Source of the DNA: Anaerolineae bacterium
GTDB taxonomy: Bacteria > Chloroflexota > Anaerolineae > JAKLPW01
NCBI GenBank assembly: GCA_022013675.1
Contig: JAKLPW010000269.1
Span: 1 to 42,650, forward strand
Length of the DNA: 42,650 bases
Direction: 5' to 3'
Both the position numbers and the translations under genes were made by a program. How positions within the stretch are numbered: position 1 is the stretch's first letter; every line of letters starts with the position of its first letter. The notes under the pieces were generated by a model. It was not told the origin of the DNA and searched no databases. It saw nothing but the letters and a program-made list of their open reading frames with translations. Shown here one piece after another: positions 15,731 to 29,251 of the stretch.

Positions 15731-16795
15731 ATGATGAACAGCAAAGAGCGGGTGTTGGCTGCCGTCAACCATACTGAACCGGATCGCGTGCCGGTCGACC
15801 TGTGGGCGCTTCCGCCAATCACGGATCGTCTTCGGGATCACTTCGGCGTGGAGGACGACGAGGCCCTGTGGCAGGCTCTGGGCATTGACTTGCGCTCTGT
15901 CTGGCCTGAGTACGTGGGGCCTCAGTTGTCGACCTTCAATGACGGCACGTGGACGGACTGGTGGGGCCTCCGCAAACGGATGATCGGCCCCTTTGAAGAG
16001 ATCGTCGAACCACCTCTGGCGGGTGCTCAGACCGTGGGTGACGTCGAGGCCCACCCGTGGCCCAACCCCGATTGGTTCGACTATGAGGGCCTGCGCCCCA
16101 TCTGCAAAACACTGAGCCAATACGCCCTCGTAGTGCGCGATGCCGGCCCCAACGCCACCTGCGTGCTGCGTCTGGCCATGTTTCTCCGCAGCATGGAGAG
16201 GTTCATGATGGACCTGGTTGCGAATCCCGACCTGGCGCGCGCCATTATCAGGCGAGTGGAGGAGTTCTACCTGGAACTGGACCGCCGCATCTTTGACGCT
16301 GTGGGCGATCTCACCGATATATACTTCATCGCCGATGACGTTGGTGTGCAGGACGGGCTGATGATCAGTCCCACTATGTTCCGTGAGTTCATCGCCCCCA
16401 GTCTGCGGCGCTTCATCGCCCAGGCCAAAGCCTATGATCAGCGAGTCATGTATCACACCTGCGGCGCTGTACGGCCCCTGATACCCGACTTCATGGAGAT
16501 GGGCGTGGACATTCTCAATCCCATCCAGGTATCGGCCAAGGGCATGGATCCGGCCGGGCTGAAACGGGATTTTGGCGACGCGCTCTGCTTCCACGGCGCG
16601 CTGGACATCCAGAGGGTCCTGTCGCAAGACACACCGGAGGATGTGCGTGCCGAGGTGGAGCGGTTATGCCAGGTTCTGGGCCAGGATGGCGGCTTCATTT
16701 TAGCGCCGACGAACAACGTCGTTCCCGAAACGCCCATTGAGAACATTCTGGCACTATACGAAGCAGTACAAGAAAACACGCGTTCGCAAAGCTAG
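15731..16795 (+). CDS. UroD-family (cobamide methyltransferase-like) protein
   Basis: A 354-residue TIM-barrel protein of the uroporphyrinogen decarboxylase superfamily. It starts SKERVLAAVNHTEPDRVPVDLW, the usual opening of the MtaA/CmuA-like and uncharacterised branch rather than of true HemE. YHTCGAVRPLIPDFMEMGVD (about 240-259) carries the His-x-Cys pair that binds zinc in methylcobamide:thiol methyltransferases. GFILAPTNNVVPETPIENI is the standard C-terminal motif. No corrinoid protein is encoded nearby. Such genes often follow sugar ABC transporters in environmental genomes, with unknown role. It lies 69 bases after the ATPase and is the last gene before a strong terminator, so it belongs to the transporter unit. 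Confidence 0.82.
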   Translation: MMNSKERVLAAVNHTEPDRVPVDLWALPPITDRLRDHFGVEDDEALWQALGIDLRSVWPEYVGPQLSTFNDGTWTDWWGLRKRMIGPFEEIVEPPLAGAQTVGDVEAHPWPNPDWFDYEGLRPICKTLSQYALVVRDAGPNATCVLRLAMFLRSMERFMMDLVANPDLARAIIRRVEEFYLELDRRIFDAVGDLTDIYFIADDVGVQDGLMISPTMFREFIAPSLRRFIAQAKAYDQRVMYHTCGAVRPLIPDFMEMGVDILNPIQVSAKGMDPAGLKRDFGDALCFHGALDIQRVLSQDTPEDVRAEVERLCQVLGQDGGFILAPTNNVVPETPIENILALYEAVQENTRSQS

Positions 16796-17859: not shown

Positions 17860-17936
17860 GACACGTTCTGAAACCAGCGCCGCTCCTCGCTCCTGAACAG
17901 GACACATTCACTAACCTGATGGAGGTCAAGAATACA

Positions 17937-18806
17937 ATGTACGACGTTGACATCATGATGCTCGGCCACTTTGCCAAAGACAGGTTGGTAGTAGATGGCG
18001 TTGGTGAGTTCGCCTCCGGTGGCGCGGTCTACTATGGCAGCGTAGCCCTGCGACACATCGGTGCTAGCGTGGCCATCGTCACCCGCCTGCATTCCAACGA
18101 TTTCCCTCTCCTGGACGAACTGAAACGGGAAGGCGTGGAGGTCTTTGCCACCGCCGCCCCAGAGACTTCCGGCATCAAGAACATCTACAACTCGGCGGAC
18201 ATGGAGCGACGCATTTGCAAACTGATGGCCTTCGCAGGCCCCTTCCAGCAAGAAGATATCCCTGACATATCGGCTCGAGTGTACCTGATCACGCCTATCA
18301 TCGCCGGCGAAGTAAGCCTGGCCTTGCTCAAGTCACTGTCCGCCCGTGGCCCTGTGGGCCTGGACATACAGGGCTTTGTCCGCGTCCGCGAGGACGGCGA
18401 ACTGATCTTCAGGCAATGGCCCGACATGGTCGAAGGGCTGGCCCATGTGACCTACCTAAAAGTGGATCGTGCTGAAGCAGAACTGCTCACCGACCAGACT
18501 GATCTGAGGATTGCCGCCCGCCAACTGGCCACCTACGGTCCACGGGAAGTCGTCATCACTCAGTCGTCGGGAGTCACCGTCTACGCGGACGGCGAGACCT
18601 TCGAAGCGCCTTTCACTCCTCGGTCACTGGCCGGACGCACCGGCCGAGGTGATACCTGCTTCGCTACTTATGTAGGCAAACGCCTAACCTTACCAGCAGA
18701 GGAGGCTTGTCGCTTCGCTGCCGCCGTCACCACTCTCAAACAGGAGCAACCAGGCCCCTGGCGCGGTAACCTGGCAGACGTCGAGGCATTGCTCACAGCC
18801 AAATAG
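17937..18806 (+). CDS. PfkB family carbohydrate or polyol kinase
   Basis: A 289-residue ribokinase-fold enzyme that phosphorylates a sugar, polyol or nucleoside with ATP. The N-terminal half carries FASGGAVYYGSVALRHIGA, the Gly-rich substrate region, and the C-terminal PfkB signature is RTGRGDTCFATYVGKRL, with the catalytic Asp in GRGDT (about residue 241). It is short compared with the usual 300-330 residues. PfkB enzymes include myo-inositol 3-kinases, so an inositol-type substrate would fit the locus, but this is inference. ATG 17937 follows GGAGGTCAAG. A decayed copy of its C-terminal part lies at 22244-22390. The alkaline-phosphatase relic follows 15 bases downstream. Confidence 0.85.
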   Translation: MYDVDIMMLGHFAKDRLVVDGVGEFASGGAVYYGSVALRHIGASVAIVTRLHSNDFPLLDELKREGVEVFATAAPETSGIKNIYNSADMERRICKLMAFAGPFQQEDIPDISARVYLITPIIAGEVSLALLKSLSARGPVGLDIQGFVRVREDGELIFRQWPDMVEGLAHVTYLKVDRAEAELLTDQTDLRIAARQLATYGPREVVITQSSGVTVYADGETFEAPFTPRSLAGRTGRGDTCFATYVGKRLTLPAEEACRFAAAVTTLKQEQPGPWRGNLADVEALLTAK

Positions 18807-18929: not shown

Positions 18930-20215
18930 AACCTAATTCAGACGGCACTATTGCTTCGTCGCTCGGCTCGCCTACGCCGTCAAGACTGCTGCCTCCTTTG
19001 GGTATGGCAGTCTGCCTTTCGCTGTTTGGTGACCTGACGCTCTATGCCGTGCTGGTCACCCAGCTCGATACGGTGGGATTGAGCTTGGGCGCGGCCGGTA
19101 TCATGTTGGGCATCAATCGATTGATCCGCATCCCGGGCAACCCGCTGACAGGCATACTGCTCGACCGCCTGGGACGGCGACCGTTATTCATCCTTGGTAT
19201 GCTGTTGGGCACCTTGTCGACGGCTGGCTATGGTCTCTTGCGCGGGTTCTGGCCTTTCTTGATCAGCCGGCTGGGTTGGGGTGTTGCCTGGACTCTCATA
19301 AATGTTAGCGGGACGACAATGACATTGGACGTGAGCACCGACTCGGACCGGGGACGGATAATGGGCATCTTCAACGCTTGGCTGTGGAGCGGATTCGCTC
19401 TAGGTCCCTTGGCAGGAAGTTTCTTGGTAGACATAGCTGGCTTCCGCCGTGGAATGCTGGTTTGTGCGGCACTGACGGCCCTCGGGCTGATCGTCGCCGC
19501 GTTCGCGTTGCCTGAAACCGCCCCGGTTGGGAATCGGAGGACACGACGGAACCCAGAGCTATCGTTGAGCCTGCCACGCCTTGCTAAAAGAATCTCGCCA
19601 CGGCGGGCTGGTGCGTTCCTTGCTGACAACCCTACTCTACTCACTACAGCCGGACTGTTTTTCATCTTTCAGCTCACCGGCGACGGGGTCACACTCTCCA
19701 CAATAAGCCTGTTGCTCCAGCAACGTCTTGGACAAGATGTTGGACTGGGCAGTTTGACGCTAGGAGTAGCTTCGGTTGCTGGCCTTCTACTAGCTCTCCG
19801 CGCTGTGCTGGCAGGGGCCATCGGTCCGCTGGCCGGACACCTGTCTGATACTCGCGTCGGCCGTTGGCCACTGCTAGTAGGTTGTCTGATCAGCGGGACC
19901 ATTGGATTCGTCCTGCTGACTCTCGCTACGTCTCCGGCAGTGATCGTGCTTGGGGTAGCGTTGGGAGCCCTAAGTGGGGGGGCAGCCCTGGTCACGCTGG
20001 GGGCCCAGGTGGGAGACGTGACGCCTCGCGGCAGGCAGGGTGCATTGATGGGCCTCTATGCCACCGTAGGCGACATTGGCAGCATGATTGGGCCATTCCT
20101 GGCCTTTGCCTTGCTGGCCTTTGTCGACCTCCGGTGGATATACTTGCTTTGTGCGCTCACGTTCTTGATCGGCCTTGGATTAGTCGCGCGCATGCGAAAA
20201 GAGGGAATCATATGA
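18926..20215 (+). CDS. MFS transporter, 12 membrane segments
   Basis: A 429-residue major facilitator with about twelve hydrophobic segments and a polar central loop near 200-225. The loop between segments 2 and 3 is ILLDRLGRRPLFILG, the classic MFS GxLxDRxGRR motif, and the repeat in the second half is AGHLSDTRVGRWPLLVG. It probably exports or imports a small organic molecule; the subfamily is drug/sugar-exporter-like. The start ATG overlaps the stop of the phosphodiesterase relic, and its own stop overlaps the next start (ATGA), so translation of the three frames is tightly linked. No substrate motif is recognised. Confidence 0.88.
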   Translation: MKPNSDGTIASSLGSPTPSRLLPPLGMAVCLSLFGDLTLYAVLVTQLDTVGLSLGAAGIMLGINRLIRIPGNPLTGILLDRLGRRPLFILGMLLGTLSTAGYGLLRGFWPFLISRLGWGVAWTLINVSGTTMTLDVSTDSDRGRIMGIFNAWLWSGFALGPLAGSFLVDIAGFRRGMLVCAALTALGLIVAAFALPETAPVGNRRTRRNPELSLSLPRLAKRISPRRAGAFLADNPTLLTTAGLFFIFQLTGDGVTLSTISLLLQQRLGQDVGLGSLTLGVASVAGLLLALRAVLAGAIGPLAGHLSDTRVGRWPLLVGCLISGTIGFVLLTLATSPAVIVLGVALGALSGGAALVTLGAQVGDVTPRGRQGALMGLYATVGDIGSMIGPFLAFALLAFVDLRWIYLLCALTFLIGLGLVARMRKEGII

Positions 20216-21327
20216 TGATAACCTCCCGCGCTCGGCTCGCCTGGGTTGGCTGTTCAGCGTTGCTGATAGCCAGTTATCTCCTGTGGGGATGTGGCACTAC
20301 GCCAACCGATCTCGCGCCATCCTATGAGGATGATGTCCCACCCGTGGATCTGGCACGCCACTATTCTCCAATCATTCACCAGGGCGCCGCATCCGACCAG
20401 GATTTCATCACCGCCGTGGACTTTGACGGAGACTGGATCGGGAGCAACAACTGGGAGAACCAGCCTACCGGGGATCTCTCGGCGTACGTCTACTACTCCG
20501 TGGCGGAGACAGAAACTCACTGGTTCCTCTTCTATGCCCTTTTCCATCCTCGCGATTACACCTCTCGCCCGTGCAATCAGTCTGGCGGCTGCCACGAGAA
20601 CGACATGGAATCAATCCAGATGGTCGTGGCCAAAGACGATACGCCCTACGGACGGCTGCAAGCCATGGAAACGCTGGCTCACGGAGACATTTACCTTTAC
20701 ACTATGGACCCCTATACCCCTGACCGCCCGGTGCGAGGTGGCTACCTCAAAGTCAAGGGCAAGGGCAAGATTCGCCTCCAGGGCAGCCACCCCATCGTCA
20801 CCGTGGAAACGTATGGCCACGGTATCCGCGGTAGTCGCCAAGTGCTTCTGCCCCACGTCGCCATCTATCACGAGGGAAATCAGGCTGAAGCGCCAGAAAG
20901 CCTGGGAGACAAGAATGTGTCGTATCAGCTTGTGTCCATCTACGACACCCTCTGGGCGCACCGAGACGAGATCGGTCCCGGGTACATCTTTGACCAACCT
21001 TTCGATTACCGGGAGCACATCCTTCCCGCAGTATTCGACGGCGAGAACTACGGCGTCGACAAGGCTAACACCCCCTGGGGCTACAACCAGGCGACAGGCA
21101 GCAAACTCATCCGAGGTGACTGGTTTCTCGATCCCGCCAAGGCCCTCTCCTACCACGCTGAGTTCGAAGGGGACTTCTCACGCACCTATCTGCACAATCA
21201 GTACTTGGTGGACTTAGAGCTGGACATCTTCTACGAGCATTTCGCCGAAGCACTCGATACTACCCGACGAATCTTCCGCATGGCAAGAGTGTCGTATGAA
21301 GTTGGGCACGGGTATGGTTGCGACTAA
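20212..21327 (+). CDS. Vps62/NPP1-like lipoprotein
   Basis: A 371-residue exported lipoprotein. After a hydrophobic signal (WVGCSALLIASYLLWGCG) a lipobox-like LLWGC ends near residue 27. The mature part starts ARHYSPIIHQ and contains THWFLFYALFHP, GGCHENDMESIQMVVAKD and VTVETYGHGIRG, then a long tail rich in aromatic and acidic residues. Order and spacing resemble the Vps62/NPP1 fold, with HEND in place of the usual H-x-D-W-E motif, and match the 17077 protein. The start overlaps the stop of the MFS gene; the frame is open farther left, but within MFS sequence. Role unknown; outside the membrane it could bind or cleave a polyol-containing ligand. Confidence 0.6.
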   Translation: MMITSRARLAWVGCSALLIASYLLWGCGTTPTDLAPSYEDDVPPVDLARHYSPIIHQGAASDQDFITAVDFDGDWIGSNNWENQPTGDLSAYVYYSVAETETHWFLFYALFHPRDYTSRPCNQSGGCHENDMESIQMVVAKDDTPYGRLQAMETLAHGDIYLYTMDPYTPDRPVRGGYLKVKGKGKIRLQGSHPIVTVETYGHGIRGSRQVLLPHVAIYHEGNQAEAPESLGDKNVSYQLVSIYDTLWAHRDEIGPGYIFDQPFDYREHILPAVFDGENYGVDKANTPWGYNQATGSKLIRGDWFLDPAKALSYHAEFEGDFSRTYLHNQYLVDLELDIFYEHFAEALDTTRRIFRMARVSYEVGHGYGCD

Positions 21328-21346: not shown

Positions 21347-21380
21347 GGCCAATGCTTCGCCATCAGCCGGGGCACTGGCC
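21347..21380 (+). terminator. Weak hairpin after the Vps62-like lipoprotein gene
   Basis: GGCCAATGC (21347-21355) pairs with GCACTGGCC (21372-21380) with one mismatch and a 16-base loop. No T run follows. It may be a partial terminator in the 181-base spacer before the GDPD gene. Confidence 0.4.
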
Positions 21381-21508
21381 TATCACGCAAGTTTCAGCAG
21401 GGGTTTCTCGAATAAACATATCCATAATACATATCTTGCGGATTCAGGTCTAGACGACCATGACTAGTTCGCCATTCTCTCTCAATAGTGTCGCGAAAGG
21501 AGACAGAT

Positions 21509-22198
21509 ATGTATCTTGAGATTGGCCATCGGGGCGCATCGGCCTACGAACCCGAGAACACACTGCGGTCCTTCCGCCGCGCTTTCGAGCTAGGCGCCGA
21601 TATGGTCGAACTGGACATCCACCTTAGCAAGGATGGTCGTGCGATAGTGATACACTCCGAGGACCTCCACCACACGACCGACGGGCACGGCTGCGTGCAG
21701 GACAAGACTCTGGCCGAATTGAAGCTGCTGGATGCAGGACGAGGCGAACGCATCCCTACGCTGCGAGAAGCGATTGGTGTCGCACGGGGGCAGGGTGGAT
21801 CATACATCGAACTCAAGGGCGAGGGGACACCCCAAGTAGTAGCGAAGATCGTCCGCGCCGAGGATTTTGTCGCCCATGTAATTGTCGGCTCCTTCAAACC
21901 GTGGCTCGTGCGCGATTTCAAGGCGCTGGCGCCCGAGATGCGAACCTCCATCCTCGTGGGACAGACAGATGTTGATCACATTGCGCTTGCACGCGCGGTT
22001 GGGGCTGACTACGTTCACCTTTGTTGGGAGAATCGTTCGCCTGCCCCTCATGAATTGCTGACCCCTGAACTGCTCGCCGCCATCCATGCCGCAGGCTTGG
22101 GCATCATTCTCTGGCACGAGGAGAGGGAGAGTGAACTAGCGGCATTGACCAAGATAGACGTGGATGGGATTTGCAGCAACAAGCCGGACCTTCTGTAA
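21509..22198 (+). CDS. Glycerophosphodiester phosphodiesterase (GDPD)
   Basis: A 229-residue TIM-barrel phosphodiesterase that hydrolyses glycerophosphodiesters (such as glycerophosphocholine or glycerophosphoinositol) to sn-glycerol 3-phosphate and an alcohol. The catalytic HRG motif is in IGHRGASAYEPENTLRSF (about residues 5-22), metal ligands in MVELDIHLSKDGRAIVIHSED, with the second His in VIHSED. There is no signal peptide, so it acts in the cytoplasm, like UgpQ. AAAGGAG lies 6 bases before the ATG. Length is slightly short but normal for the cytoplasmic type. Standing in one locus with a CUT1 importer, it recalls the ugp system. Confidence 0.92.
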   Translation: MYLEIGHRGASAYEPENTLRSFRRAFELGADMVELDIHLSKDGRAIVIHSEDLHHTTDGHGCVQDKTLAELKLLDAGRGERIPTLREAIGVARGQGGSYIELKGEGTPQVVAKIVRAEDFVAHVIVGSFKPWLVRDFKALAPEMRTSILVGQTDVDHIALARAVGADYVHLCWENRSPAPHELLTPELLAAIHAAGLGIILWHEERESELAALTKIDVDGICSNKPDLL

Positions 22199-22243: not shown

Positions 22244-22390
22244 CCCGCGCCATGAAGCACCTTCCACACCCCACTCCACTGTCAGGCACACTGGCTGGGG
22301 CGATACGTGTTTCGCTATCTACGTGAGCGGATGTCTTACCGCTTCGGCAGAGGAGACCTGCCGCTCCGCCGCCGGCGTAGAGACAGTACT
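22244..22390 (+). pseudogene. Decayed C-terminal fragment of a PfkB kinase
   Basis: In one frame this stretch reads HEAPSTPHSTVRHTGWGDTC and then FAIYVSGCLTASAEETCRSA. The intact kinase at 17937 has FEAPFTPRSLAGRTGRGDTC and FATYVGKRLTLPAEEACRFA at the same order. The match covers the PfkB signature including GDTC. There is no start codon or upstream half, so this is a relic of a duplicated kinase gene. The DNA is also clearly similar (for example GGCGATACGTGTTTCGCTA against GGTGATACCTGCTTCGCTA). Confidence 0.75.
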
Positions 22391-22559: not shown

Positions 22560-24497
22560 ATGAAATCAGCATCCCGAGAATGGCAACAGGCCCGGAAAGG
22601 CGCCTTTGTCCAAGACGTGCTGGACTCCCTGGCACGCCGCCCCTTAGATCTGCTGCCATTTGAGGAAGTGCGCCAGCAACTGCGTTTGTATCACAAACGC
22701 TACCGGGGCCTGCAAGACGTGCCGCTGGATCAAATCGTGGGCAGCGTAGGCCGCTACCGTGATTTCACTCGGGCATTCCTTCCCCGGCAGGATGGTCTGG
22801 AAAACCGCTGGCGCAGGATCGAGCGATTGGTCAGTAGCGGCGGCGGATTGCCCCCAGTCGAGCTCTTCAAAGTTGGACAAGTATATTTCGTCCACGATGG
22901 CAACCATCGCGTCTCAGTGGCGCGCCAGAACAAGGCCCCTTCCATCGAAGCCTACGTCTGGGAATACGAGACCAGGGTCCCCCTGGAGCCAGATACCGAC
23001 GTAAGAGACCTTTGGGGAAAAGCTGCGAGAAGGGCCTTTCTGGAGCGCACCAATCTGGACCGTCTCTGCGCCGGTGTGCACATCGAACTCACCCATCCGG
23101 ACGGCTACGATGATCTGCTGCACGAAATCGAAGCCTTCCAGAAGACACTCTCTCGAATTGACGAACAGAAGATGCCTTTCGATGAGGCCGTCACGTCGTG
23201 GTGCGAGATGCGGTACACACCCATCGTGGAACTCATTCGGCAGCGCGATACCCTCCAAGAGTTCCCCGATCGCACGGAAGCAGATTTGTACCTCTGGGTG
23301 CGCCGAAATCAGGAAGAACTTGAGGTGCGATACGGGCAAAAAGTCTTGATGGAAGAAGCCGCCGACGACCTGGCCGAACGCTTCGGCGGGAAGCCCTCAC
23401 CGGTTAGCCGGGTTAGGAAAGCTGCCGAACGACTGGCGGAAGGCGTAAGGGAAGTAGCCAGCCGATTGATAGGGGACCTCGTCCCAATCAAGCAGGGCCA
23501 GGAAGACGATACCATAGCCGTAGCGCTGATGGCTTCCGTCCGCCGCGTGGCCACGGCCATGCCACCGTATCGCTTTCGGGGGACGACTGAGGCCGAGTGG
23601 AAAACGTGGCGCGCCGAATTCCGCGAGCGGTTGTGGGACCTTCTTGGCGTGGGAGACCGTCCCTGGCAACCATACGGCCCAATGGAGCTGAGAGCCGAGA
23701 TTGAGGATTCGACCATAATTGACGGCATCCGGCGCGAACTCGTGTGGCTGCACACCGAAGAGGACCTACGCGTGCCCGTATACCTGTTTCTGCCGTCAGA
23801 GAACAACGAGCCACGACCGGCCATCATCGTCTTTCCCGGACATGGCACCATCGCCCAGACAGCCGGCCTACGGAGGTCTTATCAGCGGGCCAATGCCCTG
23901 AAGCTTGCTCGCGCCGGATACGTCACGCTAACTATGGAACTACGCGGGTTCGGCAGGCTCGATTCCATCGGCCACTTGCAGATAGACGCTGCCTCCCGGC
24001 TGGTGGGCCGCACCTGGTACGGTATGGTCGTCCAAGATGCGATGCGTGTCATTGACTATCTCCTGACCCGCCCTGAGGTGGACCCCGCCCGCATCGGCGC
24101 GACCGGCATCGGCTCCGGCGGTGCGCTGACTCTCTACACTGCCGCCTTGGACGAGCGGGTCCGGGCAGCACTGGTCAATAGCTACCTGGGCAAATACGTC
24201 ATCACCTGCCTGGACGAGGAGCACTGCTCCTGCAATGACATTCCCGGCATCCTGCGCCATGCCGAGATGGGTGACGTGGCTGCGCTTCTCGCTCCACGCC
24301 CGGCCATGTTCGTCAACGGCCGGCGCGATCCGGCCACCAGTCACGCAGCGAGGGAAAGCTTCGCGGTCGCCCACCAGGTATACAGCTTCCTGGGCGTGCC
24401 TCAGCGTATCAAGCTCATCGAGCCGGAGGAGATGGGTCACTACTTCGACAACCAACTGGCCGAAAACTGGTTTCGCCGGTGGTTGTCAATAGAGTAG
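22560..24497 (+). CDS. ParB/DUF4032-like domain fused to an alpha/beta hydrolase
   Basis: A 645-residue two-part protein. Residues 1-275 match the ParB-like DUF4032-type family: VPLDQIVGSVGRYRDF (55-69), PPVELFKVGQVYFVHDGNHRVSVAR (core DGNHR, 113-117) and EFPDRTEADLYLWV (234-247). Residues about 335-645 form an alpha/beta hydrolase of the dienelactone/acetyl-xylan-esterase kind: FPGHG (425-429, oxyanion side), MELRGFGRLD, the elbow region TGIGSGGAL (515-523), GRRDP (Asp590) and MGHYF (His627). The elbow reads GIGSGG, where relatives have G-x-S-G-G, so the Ser is one place late and Ile sits at position -2; activity is in doubt. A sensor or adaptor role for the N-terminal half is inference. TGGAGGA precedes the ATG. 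No close function is known. Confidence 0.75.
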   Translation: MKSASREWQQARKGAFVQDVLDSLARRPLDLLPFEEVRQQLRLYHKRYRGLQDVPLDQIVGSVGRYRDFTRAFLPRQDGLENRWRRIERLVSSGGGLPPVELFKVGQVYFVHDGNHRVSVARQNKAPSIEAYVWEYETRVPLEPDTDVRDLWGKAARRAFLERTNLDRLCAGVHIELTHPDGYDDLLHEIEAFQKTLSRIDEQKMPFDEAVTSWCEMRYTPIVELIRQRDTLQEFPDRTEADLYLWVRRNQEELEVRYGQKVLMEEAADDLAERFGGKPSPVSRVRKAAERLAEGVREVASRLIGDLVPIKQGQEDDTIAVALMASVRRVATAMPPYRFRGTTEAEWKTWRAEFRERLWDLLGVGDRPWQPYGPMELRAEIEDSTIIDGIRRELVWLHTEEDLRVPVYLFLPSENNEPRPAIIVFPGHGTIAQTAGLRRSYQRANALKLARAGYVTLTMELRGFGRLDSIGHLQIDAASRLVGRTWYGMVVQDAMRVIDYLLTRPEVDPARIGATGIGSGGALTLYTAALDERVRAALVNSYLGKYVITCLDEEHCSCNDIPGILRHAEMGDVAALLAPRPAMFVNGRRDPATSHAARESFAVAHQVYSFLGVPQRIKLIEPEEMGHYFDNQLAENWFRRWLSIE

Positions 24498-24634: not shown

Positions 24635-24661
24635 AACACATATTATACGAGGAGAAACAAC

Positions 24662-25681
24662 ATGTCCTCCAAATTAAACGTAGGCATCATCGGAGCCGGA
24701 CGAATCGGCCGGCTCCACGCCGAACAGTTGGCTTTCCGCATCCCCCAGGCCAATATCGTAGCCATATCCGACGTCATCCTGGAAGCAGCCCGGAGATGCG
24801 CAGCCGACTTTGGCATCCCCTTCGCTGTTCAGGACCATCGCGCCATCATGAATAACCCCAACATCGAGGCCGTCATCATCTGTTCTAGCACCGACACCCA
24901 CGCGCAGATGATCGAGGAGGCCGCCGCCGAGGGCAAACACATCTTCTGCGAGAAGCCCATCGCCCTCGACCTGAACCGCATTCACCAGGCTCTAAAAGCT
25001 GTAGAAAAAGCCGGCGTTAAGCTGCAGGTCGGCTTCAATCGCCGCTTCGACGCCAACTACGCCCGAGTGCGACAAGCCGTGGAACAGGGCGAGATCGGCG
25101 AGCCCCATCTGCTCCACATCATCAGCCGCGATCCAGCGCCACCGCCCATCGAGTACATCAGAGTATCCGGGGGCATCTTCTTGGACATGACCATCCACGA
25201 CTTCGACATGGCCCGTTTCCTCATCGGCAGCGAGGTGGAAGAGATCTACGCCGCCGGAGGCGTGATGGTGGACCCGGCTATCGGGGAGGCCGGCGATATT
25301 GATACTGCCCTCATCACCCTGCGATTCGAGAACGGCGTCATCGGCACCATCGACAACAGCCGCCAGGCGGTCTACGGCTACGACCAGCGCGTCGAGGTCT
25401 TCGGCAGCAAGGGATCCATCAGCACTGGCAATAACTATCCCAACACGGCCCTGGTGCGCGGCGGCCAAACCATTCACCGCGACCTACCGCTGAACTTCTT
25501 CATAGAGCGATATGCGGATTCCTACATCGCTGAGAAGCAGGCCTTCCTTGATTCCATTCAGCTTGACATCACCCCGCCGGTCACCGGACGCGATGGCCTC
25601 ATCCCGGTCGTAATGGGCTACGCCGCGCGCAAGTCCTACGAGGAGAACCGGCCGGTCAAGCTCAGCGAGATCTATCCGTAG
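24662..25681 (+). CDS. iolG: Inositol 2-dehydrogenase (Gfo/Idh/MocA family)
   Basis: A 339-residue NAD-dependent dehydrogenase that oxidises myo-inositol to scyllo-inosose (2-keto-myo-inositol) in the cytoplasm. The Rossmann motif is GAGRIG (11-16). EKP (97-99) supplies the catalytic Lys98. The substrate-side pair is Asp175 and His179 in FLDMTIHDFDMARF, the arrangement of known inositol dehydrogenases, and LQVGFNRRFDANY and GRDGLIPVVMGYAA are typical IolG stretches. ATG 24662 follows CGAGGAG. It is followed by LacI regulator 2, then iolM and iolN homologues, and this context supports inositol over other polyols. Oxidoreductases of this family can act on several cyclitols. Confidence 0.85.
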   Translation: MSSKLNVGIIGAGRIGRLHAEQLAFRIPQANIVAISDVILEAARRCAADFGIPFAVQDHRAIMNNPNIEAVIICSSTDTHAQMIEEAAAEGKHIFCEKPIALDLNRIHQALKAVEKAGVKLQVGFNRRFDANYARVRQAVEQGEIGEPHLLHIISRDPAPPPIEYIRVSGGIFLDMTIHDFDMARFLIGSEVEEIYAAGGVMVDPAIGEAGDIDTALITLRFENGVIGTIDNSRQAVYGYDQRVEVFGSKGSISTGNNYPNTALVRGGQTIHRDLPLNFFIERYADSYIAEKQAFLDSIQLDITPPVTGRDGLIPVVMGYAARKSYEENRPVKLSEIYP

Positions 25682-26822: not shown

Positions 26823-27980
26823 ATGCAAGGATTGGTACTCGACGCAGTATGGGAACCCAAGCCGGATTATGTGGTTTCCGAATGGGAGAAGAAGACCGGC
26901 AAGGCCATCACCGGCAACAGCATCTGGCGGCATCCCAAGTTGGGGGTTCGCGACTGGCCTGACCCCAAACCTGGGCCACGAGAGGTGCTCTTGAAAATCC
27001 AAGCCTGCGGCGTCTGCGGTTCCGACATGCACTTCTACGAAACGGACGACGACGATTACATCCTGTACCCAGGCCTGACCAAATTCCCCACCATCCTGGG
27101 CCACGAGTTCTCCGGCAAGGTAGTAGAAGTGGGGAAAGAAGTCGAGACACTCAGAGTCGGGGATATGGTAACGGCGGAGGAGATGATCTGGTGCGGCCGC
27201 TGCATCCCCTGTCGCAACGGCTACCCCAACCACTGCACCAGCTTGGAAGAACTTGGCTTCACCATCCCGGGTGCCTTTGCCGACTACATCGCCGTGGACG
27301 AGAAGTTCTGCTGGAAGATTGATGCCATCGCCGAACAGTTCGGCAGCGAGGAGAAGGCCTACGAAGTGGGCGCTGTCACAGAGCCAACTTGCGTCGCCTA
27401 CAATGGCATGTTCGAGCGCGCGGGCGGCTTCCGGCCGGGGCATTACGTCAGCATCTTTGGCGCGGGCCCCATCGGCCTGGCCGCTGCAGGACTGGCGAAG
27501 GCGGCCGGTGCGGGCATCATCGTGTCCTTCGAATTATCTCCCCAGCGCCGTGAGCTGGCCAAGAAGGTCGGCGCCGACTATGTATACGACCCTCGAGAGG
27601 TCACGCCCAGCAATATCCTGATGGAACTGAGTAAGGGCGAAGGGTTCGACTTCATGGTCGAAGCCGCCGGTGCTCCCAGCCTGACCATGCCTGAGATGGA
27701 AAATGCCCTGGCCATCAACGGCAAGATCGTCCAGATTGGGCGAGCAGCCCAGCGGGTGCCCATGTATCTGGAGGCTTTCCAGGTTCGCCGCGCTCAGGTC
27801 TTCGGTGCTCAGGGACACTCGGGGCACGAGACATTTCCCAACGTCATCCGTCTGGTCGCCGCCGGCAGGCTCGACATGACTCCCATCATCACCGCTCGCT
27901 ACAAGCTCGAAGAGGCCGTAGATGCCATCGCCAAGTCCATCAAGCGGGCCGATGGCAAGATTCTGGTCAAACCCAGCTAG
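26823..27980 (+). CDS. iolM: Zinc dehydrogenase, probable scyllo-inosose 3-dehydrogenase
   Basis: A 385-residue medium-chain zinc dehydrogenase. Catalytic zinc ligands are Cys65 (CGVCGSD), His94 and Glu95 (GHEFSG); structural zinc cysteines are 124, 127, 130 and 138 (WCGRCIPCRNGYPNHC). The NAD site is IFGAGPIGLAAAG. A long N-terminal extension, ILYPGLTKFP before GHE, and AFQVRRAQVFGAQGHSGH are features I recall in the Thermotoga maritima scyllo-inosose 3-dehydrogenase (IolM), which makes a diketo-inositol from scyllo-inosose. Neighbouring iolG and iolN homologues make this the best call; a generic polyol dehydrogenase is the alternative. The strong binding site AAGGAGG precedes the ATG. A promoter-proximal regulator gene lies just upstream. 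Confidence 0.75.
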   Translation: MQGLVLDAVWEPKPDYVVSEWEKKTGKAITGNSIWRHPKLGVRDWPDPKPGPREVLLKIQACGVCGSDMHFYETDDDDYILYPGLTKFPTILGHEFSGKVVEVGKEVETLRVGDMVTAEEMIWCGRCIPCRNGYPNHCTSLEELGFTIPGAFADYIAVDEKFCWKIDAIAEQFGSEEKAYEVGAVTEPTCVAYNGMFERAGGFRPGHYVSIFGAGPIGLAAAGLAKAAGAGIIVSFELSPQRRELAKKVGADYVYDPREVTPSNILMELSKGEGFDFMVEAAGAPSLTMPEMENALAINGKIVQIGRAAQRVPMYLEAFQVRRAQVFGAQGHSGHETFPNVIRLVAAGRLDMTPIITARYKLEEAVDAIAKSIKRADGKILVKPS

Positions 27981-28129: not shown

Positions 28130-29251
28130 ATGACAAACGAAGCTCCGAAAGGCTGGCTTGCTACTGATCAGCCAGGTCTCATGTTTGAGGACAACGCGAT
28201 TGGCCGCATGAAGAAGGAAGTATGGGAAGCCAGCGACGAACAGATTGACGGTATCCTTACTGAATATGGGCTGCCGTCTCCGGTGGAATGGGGCAAGCCC
28301 GGTTCCTACATTCAGACCACCATCCGCCACCAGGTAGTTGAGGAACGGCGTAAGAACGACATCGTGATTATCCCCATTGGCTGCACCGAACTCCATGGCG
28401 CCCACATGGCCAGCGGGACGGATACCCTCTTCGTGAGCATGATCGCCGAGGGCATGCGCCGATTCACTAAAGCTATGGGCTACCCGGTAGCAGTTTCCCT
28501 GCCTCCTCTCATGTTTGGTTCTCACCCCTACCACCACTACGGCATGGCCGGGACAGTGCCGATACACGAGGACGTCTCCCGGGAGATGCTGATCGACGTG
28601 ATGCTCGGCCTCTGGAACGATGGCTTTCGCAAGCAGATTCTACTCAACAACCACGGACACCTCTGGATGCTGGAGGCCACTATACAACAATTCTGCAAGC
28701 GCTACCAACTGCCCGGCGTCTACCGGGTGATTGACTGGCACCGGGCGGTGCGCGAGTTCTTCTACACCGAGGCGAGAGGCGGAGCATGGGGTTCCCACTT
28801 TGTCCACGCCGAGGAAGCCGAGACCTCCCTGGCGCTCTACCTCTTCCCCGATATGGTGGACATGGCCTACGCCGTCAACACGGAAGGTAAAGGGTATTTG
28901 CCTGAGGGACACTTCGACAAGTCTGTGGATCCCTATGGCCGGCCCAGTCGTTGGTCCGAGGGTGAAGGGCACTTTGCCATTGAGATCTCGGCCACACCGG
29001 AGGGGGTCGTGGGCAATGCCGCCGACGCCGAGGCATGGAAGGCTAAACGCCCGCTGGCGGCCATCCTGCGCTACCTGACCTTGCTGGTTGACGACATCCT
29101 GGAGGTCTTCCCGGCCGGCGAGGTGCCGCCTGTGGAGGAAGTCACCCTTCGCACAGCCGAGGAGATGGAACCCTACCTACGCGAACCGATGAGCGAAGGT
29201 TGGAAGTCGGTCTATGCGCTGCCAGCCATCGGCCAGAGAATGGTGCCGTAG
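28130..29251 (+). CDS. iolN: Creatininase-family hydrolase, probable 3-dehydro-scyllo-inosose hydrolase
   Basis: A 373-residue metal-dependent hydrolase of the creatininase fold. PIGCTELHGAHMASGTDT (82-99) gives metal ligands Glu87, His89 and Asp98; LLNNHGHLWM and FVHAEEAETSLAL supply the later His and Glu ligands. It is about 110 residues longer than creatininase, with an N-terminal extension. In T. maritima a creatininase-superfamily protein, IolN, opens the diketo-inositol ring to 5-keto-L-gluconate; this gene next to iolM and iolG homologues fits that step. A weak site (AAAGGTGA) precedes the ATG. The iolO-type epimerase that should follow in the pathway is not in the window. Confidence 0.72.
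   Translation: MTNEAPKGWLATDQPGLMFEDNAIGRMKKEVWEASDEQIDGILTEYGLPSPVEWGKPGSYIQTTIRHQVVEERRKNDIVIIPIGCTELHGAHMASGTDTLFVSMIAEGMRRFTKAMGYPVAVSLPPLMFGSHPYHHYGMAGTVPIHEDVSREMLIDVMLGLWNDGFRKQILLNNHGHLWMLEATIQQFCKRYQLPGVYRVIDWHRAVREFFYTEARGGAWGSHFVHAEEAETSLALYLFPDMVDMAYAVNTEGKGYLPEGHFDKSVDPYGRPSRWSEGEGHFAIEISATPEGVVGNAADAEAWKAKRPLAAILRYLTLLVDDILEVFPAGEVPPVEEVTLRTAEEMEPYLREPMSEGWKSVYALPAIGQRMVP

Follow-up and report, generated by a model that had tools for sequence, protein, structure and literature searches.

A recent survey treats modules of the ParB fold as general NTP-binding units that recombine with other domains (PMC12704722): they are repeatedly fused to further domains, bind CTP, ATP or GTP and carry a GxxR phosphate (P) motif, and their nucleotide preference is unpredictable from sequence. 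The fusion partners named in the main text of that survey are HNH, UPF0020, CBS, methyltransferase, ASCH and DUF domains, with no mention there of an alpha/beta-hydrolase or universal-stress partner. Canonical ParB itself continues into HTH and C-terminal dimerisation domains. On the hydrolase side, the closest described proteins for the present case are the acetyl xylan esterases of CE7 and the CE15 esterases (3nuz, 3g8y, 6goc). An alpha/beta-hydrolase fold can also be used for binding after its nucleophile is lost, as in the cholinesterase-like neuroligins, which are eukaryotic adhesion proteins unrelated to the fusion described below.

The window (the whole stretch of 42,650 nucleotides analysed here, from an Anaerolineae bacterium) holds an intact open frame for a two-domain protein of 645 residues, which joins a ParB-fold module to an alpha/beta-hydrolase domain. 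With the surveyed fusions (PMC12704722) it has in common the ParB/Srx fold, the GxxR P motif and a lineage-specific fused domain; unlike canonical ParB it has a hydrolase as its C-terminal half, a partner absent from the survey's main text, and it is not recognised by PF02195, the profile on which the survey was based. The ORF listing begins this gene at an upstream GTG (22521), and we favour the ATG at 22560 because of the ribosome-binding site GGAGG that precedes it by 8 nt; the frame first proposed, 22560-24497, is borne out as open and intact. The features of the gene are the following.

22560..24497, + strand: fusion gene, ParB-fold/DUF4032-type module plus pseudo-esterase, with orthologous fusions at 60-74% identity
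22547..22551, + strand: Shine-Dalgarno-like GGAGG of the fusion gene, 8 nt upstream of ATG 22560
22560..23384, + strand: N-terminal module, residues 1-275, ParB/sulfiredoxin fold plus a helical DUF4032-type part (AF2, Foldseek, DUF4032 in 33/53 relatives)
22896..22910, + strand: DGNHR, residues 113-117, Box II / GxxR phosphate motif (DGNHR in 50/53 module sequences, DGHHR in 3/53)
23385..23561, + strand: linker, residues 276-334, with weak conservation and low confidence in the model
23562..24494, + strand: C-terminal alpha/beta-hydrolase domain without nucleophile, residues 335-645 (AXE1 3.4e-12; Foldseek)
24111-24113, + strand: Gly518, nucleophile position by alignment with standalone homologs
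24114-24116, + strand: Ser519, the 'displaced Ser' of the original prediction, from the elbow reading
24327..24329, + strand: Asp590, acid position of the triad, kept in 7/8 fusions
24438..24440, + strand: His627, base position of the triad, kept in 7/8 fusions

The same junction recurs in the orthologs of other genomes at 60-74% identity, which rules out a chance juxtaposition or an assembly error. Between the two domains, linker identity is 31-49% among the closer fusions and 23% to the copy of genome G231, and pLDDT drops to about 50-65 there in the full-length model. That model has a mean pLDDT of 88.1 and, with its weak linker, a modest pTM of 0.59, and therefore does not fix the relative placement of the domains.

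AlphaFold2 modelled residues 1-275 with a mean pLDDT of 93.6. The best PDB matches of this module in Foldseek are ParB-N and Noc (E 1.2e-4 to 8e-4) and sulfiredoxin (6ky4 Srx, TMt 0.68, 2.7 A over 87 columns), with SbnI ranking lower (86-88 columns, 2.4-2.5 A, 20% identity, E 0.04-0.06). Across 53 module sequences the motif reads DGNHR in 50 and DGHHR in 3, GNHR (window residues 114-117) or GHHR being present in all, and the invariant columns of the 53-row alignment include I59, G61, S62, R65, Y66, F69, F73, P75, R83, W84, P98, P99, Y109, F110, D113, G114, H116, R117 and S119, among others. Sequence profiles see much less of this. Pfam matched nothing in residues 1-275 of the window protein, neither DUF4032 (PF13224) nor ParB_N (PF02195). 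Among the 53 relatives, DUF4032 is found in 33 at E up to 5 (best 2.1e-11) and ParB_N weakly in 3 (best E 0.0011); in the four relatives whose significant DUF4032 match was listed with its extent, all above 23.8 bits, the best stretch runs from residue 188-217 to 274-279 and covers the C-terminal half of the profile. Neither the window protein nor any of the 53 modules had a Pfam domain corresponding to the HTH or C-terminal dimerisation domains of canonical ParB, a PDB sequence search with the module profile returned insignificant matches only, and our literature search for DUF4032 found no paper naming it. The original prediction had seen in these 275 residues a DGNHR ParB-like core and the whole of a DUF4032-type module: the motif and, by structure prediction and Foldseek, the ParB-type fold stand, and Pfam finds neither DUF4032 nor ParB_N in the window copy. 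GNHR fits the P motif, and by analogy with other ParB-fold proteins the module probably binds a nucleotide.

The C-terminal half, taken from the start to be hydrolase-like, scores 46.2 bits with AXE1 against a Pfam cut-off of 21 (E 3.4e-12); DLH is also above its cut-off, and the stretches aligned to AXE1, DLH and Abhydrolase_7 fall within residues 332 to 590. Similarly, Foldseek aligned the full-length model with acetyl xylan and CE15 esterases at E values down to 2.8e-19 (3nuz). The domain shares with these enzymes the fold, the Gly-His oxyanion loop and the Asp and His positions, and differs from them in having Gly in place of the nucleophile Ser and in the ParB-fold module at its N-terminus.

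The nucleophile elbow of the window protein reads T-G-I-G-S-G-G. The original prediction gave G-x-S-G-G for relatives, which puts their nucleophile one residue before Ser519, and this holds in 25/25 standalone homologs from the class. The column of Gly518 is Ser in all 25 of them and Gly in all eight fusion copies (7 genomes), whereas the column of residue 519 is Gly in 25/25 standalone proteins and, among the fusions, Ser in the window only, Ala in six copies (G374, G053, G248 twice, G398 and G399) and Leu in one (G231). No other residue column is constant across the 25 standalone proteins yet different in every fusion. The alignment used puts a short leading segment of the hydrolase rows in the wrong place, and a trimmed full-length alignment that misplaced the hydrolase rows was left out. 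The window codon for Ser519, TCC, is one base away from GCC, the Ala codon in five of the six Ala copies. Elbow placement was read from the secondary structure of the model together with the alignment: a strand spans residues 507-517 and a helix starts at 519, which puts Gly518 at the elbow tip, the place expected for a nucleophile. Other pocket positions are mostly retained, with Gly427-His428 of the oxyanion loop kept in all fusions and both Asp590 and His627 kept in 7/8 (G231 lacks the two). Judging from the alignment and the model, Ser-based catalysis has very probably been lost.

Loss of the nucleophile did not bring decay of the domain. The closest pairs give NG86 dN/dS values of 0.14-0.19 for the C-domain and 0.13-0.18 for the N-domain, ratios that are approximate because dS lies between about 0.6 and 1.4, and identity to the two closest full-length relatives is higher in the C-domain (77-80%) than in the N-domain (72-75%). 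A decaying pseudogene is ruled out by the intact frame and by dN/dS of 0.14-0.19; on these sequence comparisons the hydrolase domain is under purifying selection, a maintained pseudo-esterase. The dead hydrolase that the original prediction had offered as one option is what the Ser/Gly contrast and this selection support.

The fusion, unfamiliar when it was first noticed, proved rare in the search of other genomes. It occurs in full or in part in 5/396 genomes of the class, including the window (window, G374, G053, G248, G231), the G053 fusion being also that of locus L003 (Anaerolineales UBA3071). A search of 48 genomes of an order added two fusions, in G398 and in G399, the latter truncated at a contig end; in 400 genomes of the phylum the window was the only case. 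Of the two fusion loci in G248, one is truncated by the end of its contig, and the other (G248:C351) has a TAG in frame (L034 11268-11270) that may be a real disruption or a sequencing error. In the hydrolase tree the domains of the fusions cluster together at 100/100, with long branches for G231 and some standalone rows. In the N-module tree, five fusions group with the solo module of G004 (98/90), and G231, whose hydrolase joins the other fusions, is placed elsewhere with other modules at moderate support (94/89). These trees would fit a single fusion event, two of them, or a module swap in G231.

By contrast with the fusion, the module is widespread: a search with the module alone (E <= 1e-10) found it in 320/396 sampled genomes of the class, an earlier tally of 354/396 having used the full-length query and been inflated by hydrolase-only matches. 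Some copies are proteins in their own right, and others are partly repeated or joined to Usp domains. L021, L027, L042 and L043, each with a module protein about 450 residues long, repeat the part after query residue 147 at 32-37% identity; universal-stress-protein domains accompany the module in L017 and L041, where Pfam Usp matches, and in L044 and L048, as read from sequence. Sixteen module loci were examined and, having been chosen for carrying the module, do not measure association. Solo modules stand in clusters sharing window genes in five genomes: G176 (ABC transporter, URO-D-like gene, PhnP-like pair), G119 and G240 (ABC, GDPD, PfkB, creatininase-family and IolO-like genes), G047 (ABC) and G004 (PhnP-like pair). 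The remaining loci, including the second module copy of the window's own genome, showed no window-gene cluster. Module and hydrolase are therefore separable, since modules without the hydrolase occur in clusters that share window genes.

The neighbourhood of the fusion gene in the window includes the following genes.

24659..25681, + strand: IolG, inositol 2-dehydrogenase (TIGR04380, 480.4 against a cut-off of 355 bits; best PDB match 3ezy, E 1.5e-112)
26823..27980, + strand: IolM, scyllo-inosose 3-dehydrogenase (NF041097, 559.5 against a cut-off of 450 bits)
28130..29251, + strand: IolN, 3-dehydro-scyllo-inosose hydrolase (NF041098, 315.8 against a cut-off of 245 bits)
17934..18806, + strand: PfkB-family kinase of the TM0415 type (only TM0415-type PDB entries below E 1e-15, 1.2e-47)
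21488..22198, + strand: glycerophosphodiester phosphodiesterase, GDPD (PF03009, 6.4e-36)

Given that IolG, IolM and IolN pass NCBIfam equivalog cut-offs and are accompanied by a TM0415-like kinase, the window is, by sequence, a Thermotoga-type inositol locus. TM0415 itself belongs to an inositol gene cluster and is a myo-inositol kinase that depends on PPi (PMC5931981). Compared with 1vk4, the window kinase shares the GRTGRGD stretch and has KQEQPGP where TM0415 has KMRHPGP; PPi use by the window enzyme is plausible, not certain.

The inositol setting, part of the original prediction, is confirmed for the window and does not extend to every fusion. Five of the eight copies lie in inositol loci (window, G374, G053 and both of G248), the fusion adjoining an IolG homolog in the four outside the window, and IolO was found by profile in the G248:C351 locus. 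The other three lie outside such loci: neighbouring genes read from sequence by eye are uvrA-like and queG-like in G398 and queG-like in G399, and no window gene was near the fusion in G231. Among 20 IolN loci drawn from a family search independently of the module, none carried the module, not even L120, which has ABC transporter, IolG, IolM, IolN, IolO and PfkB genes. A fixed place of the module in inositol loci is ruled out by this count, and the module is accessory to inositol use.

Several other features of the neighbourhood were recorded. Just upstream of the fusion gene, window positions 22254-22388 hold a remnant that matches the C-terminal portion of the PfkB kinase (17934-18806) at 60% over 45 aa, with E 4.5e-10. 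Positions 21366-21455 hold a short one that matches a section of the 19864-21327 protein at 53% over 30 aa, with E 2e-4; together the two suggest past local duplication and decay. A protein at about 20230-21324, which had no Pfam or NCBIfam match at 1e-5, is conserved in the fusion loci of G374 (63%) and G248 (56%). A URO-D/MtaA-like protein (15731-16795) lies beside ABC transporter genes, and its G176 homolog (L097) adjoins a solo module. Directly upstream of the fusion, G374 (L033 5280-6811) and G053 (L003 1-1097) have tandem PhnP-like metallo-beta-lactamase genes, in place of which the window has the GDPD gene.

As to function, the proposal of a new enzyme in which a displaced Ser519 attacks with His627 and Asp590 draws on the presence of all three residues in the window protein. 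Its serine, however, is Ala in six of the other seven fusions and Leu in the seventh, is a single-base departure from the relatives' Ala codon in one lineage, and in the model begins the helix after the elbow tip. With no conservation among the fusions, Ser519 was rejected as a relocated nucleophile, and we consider such an esterase highly improbable. The strongest rival to a regulatory role dispenses with serine: the His627-Asp590 pair and the oxyanion loop would run a lyase, isomerase or general-base hydrolysis reaction in inositol or sugar-acid metabolism. Retention of Asp590 and His627 in 7/8 fusions, unneeded in a mere binding domain, could reflect such a serine-independent reaction, as could Gly427-His428 in every copy and the purifying selection on the domain; yet G231 keeps the domain without both residues, complete inositol loci exist without the protein and some fusions lie outside inositol loci, and we hold this enzyme to be rather unlikely.

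Close behind comes a purely structural C-domain, a scaffold or dimerisation domain only, with the N-module working as it does in relatives that are solo or fused to Usp. Modules lacking a hydrolase are common, in similar loci too, and the remaining triad positions are lost in G231; the persistence of pocket positions Gly427, His428, Asp590 and His627 in most copies speaks against it, and it too strikes us as unlikely. A further alternative makes the N-module a SerK/SbnI-type small-molecule kinase, with the C-domain merely positioning the substrate. In its favour are the Foldseek alignment to SbnI, a likeness of fold, and DGHHR in 3/53 modules; but the SbnI E values are weak, sulfiredoxin and ParB rank above it, and the locus already has a TM0415-type inositol kinase, so that this reading appears improbable.

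A role in sensing or regulation is more likely for the fusion protein than that of an ordinary esterase. The reading to which we give most weight, at somewhat less than an even chance, is a non-hydrolytic regulatory protein built from a ParB-fold NTP-binding module and a ligand-binding pseudo-esterase. It is supported by the contrast between Gly518 (8/8 fusions) and Ser (25/25 standalone proteins), by the ParB, Noc, Srx and SbnI matches, by the Usp-fused modules and by the separability of module and hydrolase. Counted against it are the 0/20 IolN loci with the module, which is evidently not needed for the pathway, and the G398, G399 and G231 copies outside inositol loci. In such a regulator the N-module would bind nucleotide and work as a switch; the pseudo-esterase, for which we infer a sensor role, would still bind a small carbohydrate-like ligand without cleaving it, in the window locus perhaps inositol, keto-inositol or a uronate ester; and ligand occupancy would be coupled to the nucleotide state of the N-module. 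More tentatively, we speculate that the nucleophile-less carbohydrate-esterase pocket reads a sugar, inositol or ester ligand and thereby sets the nucleotide state of the ParB-fold module, which would make the protein a metabolite sensor linked to CTP or ATP, in a role other than DNA segregation.

The fusion adds to the ParB-fold family a partner unnamed in the main text of the survey (PMC12704722), a carbohydrate-esterase-like domain without its nucleophile, and shows that PF02195 fails to detect a module carried by about four fifths of the sampled genomes of the class. It also offers a natural test of whether a pseudo-enzyme domain can be the ligand input of a nucleotide switch, and the Ser/Gly contrast between standalone and fused homologs is directly assayable.
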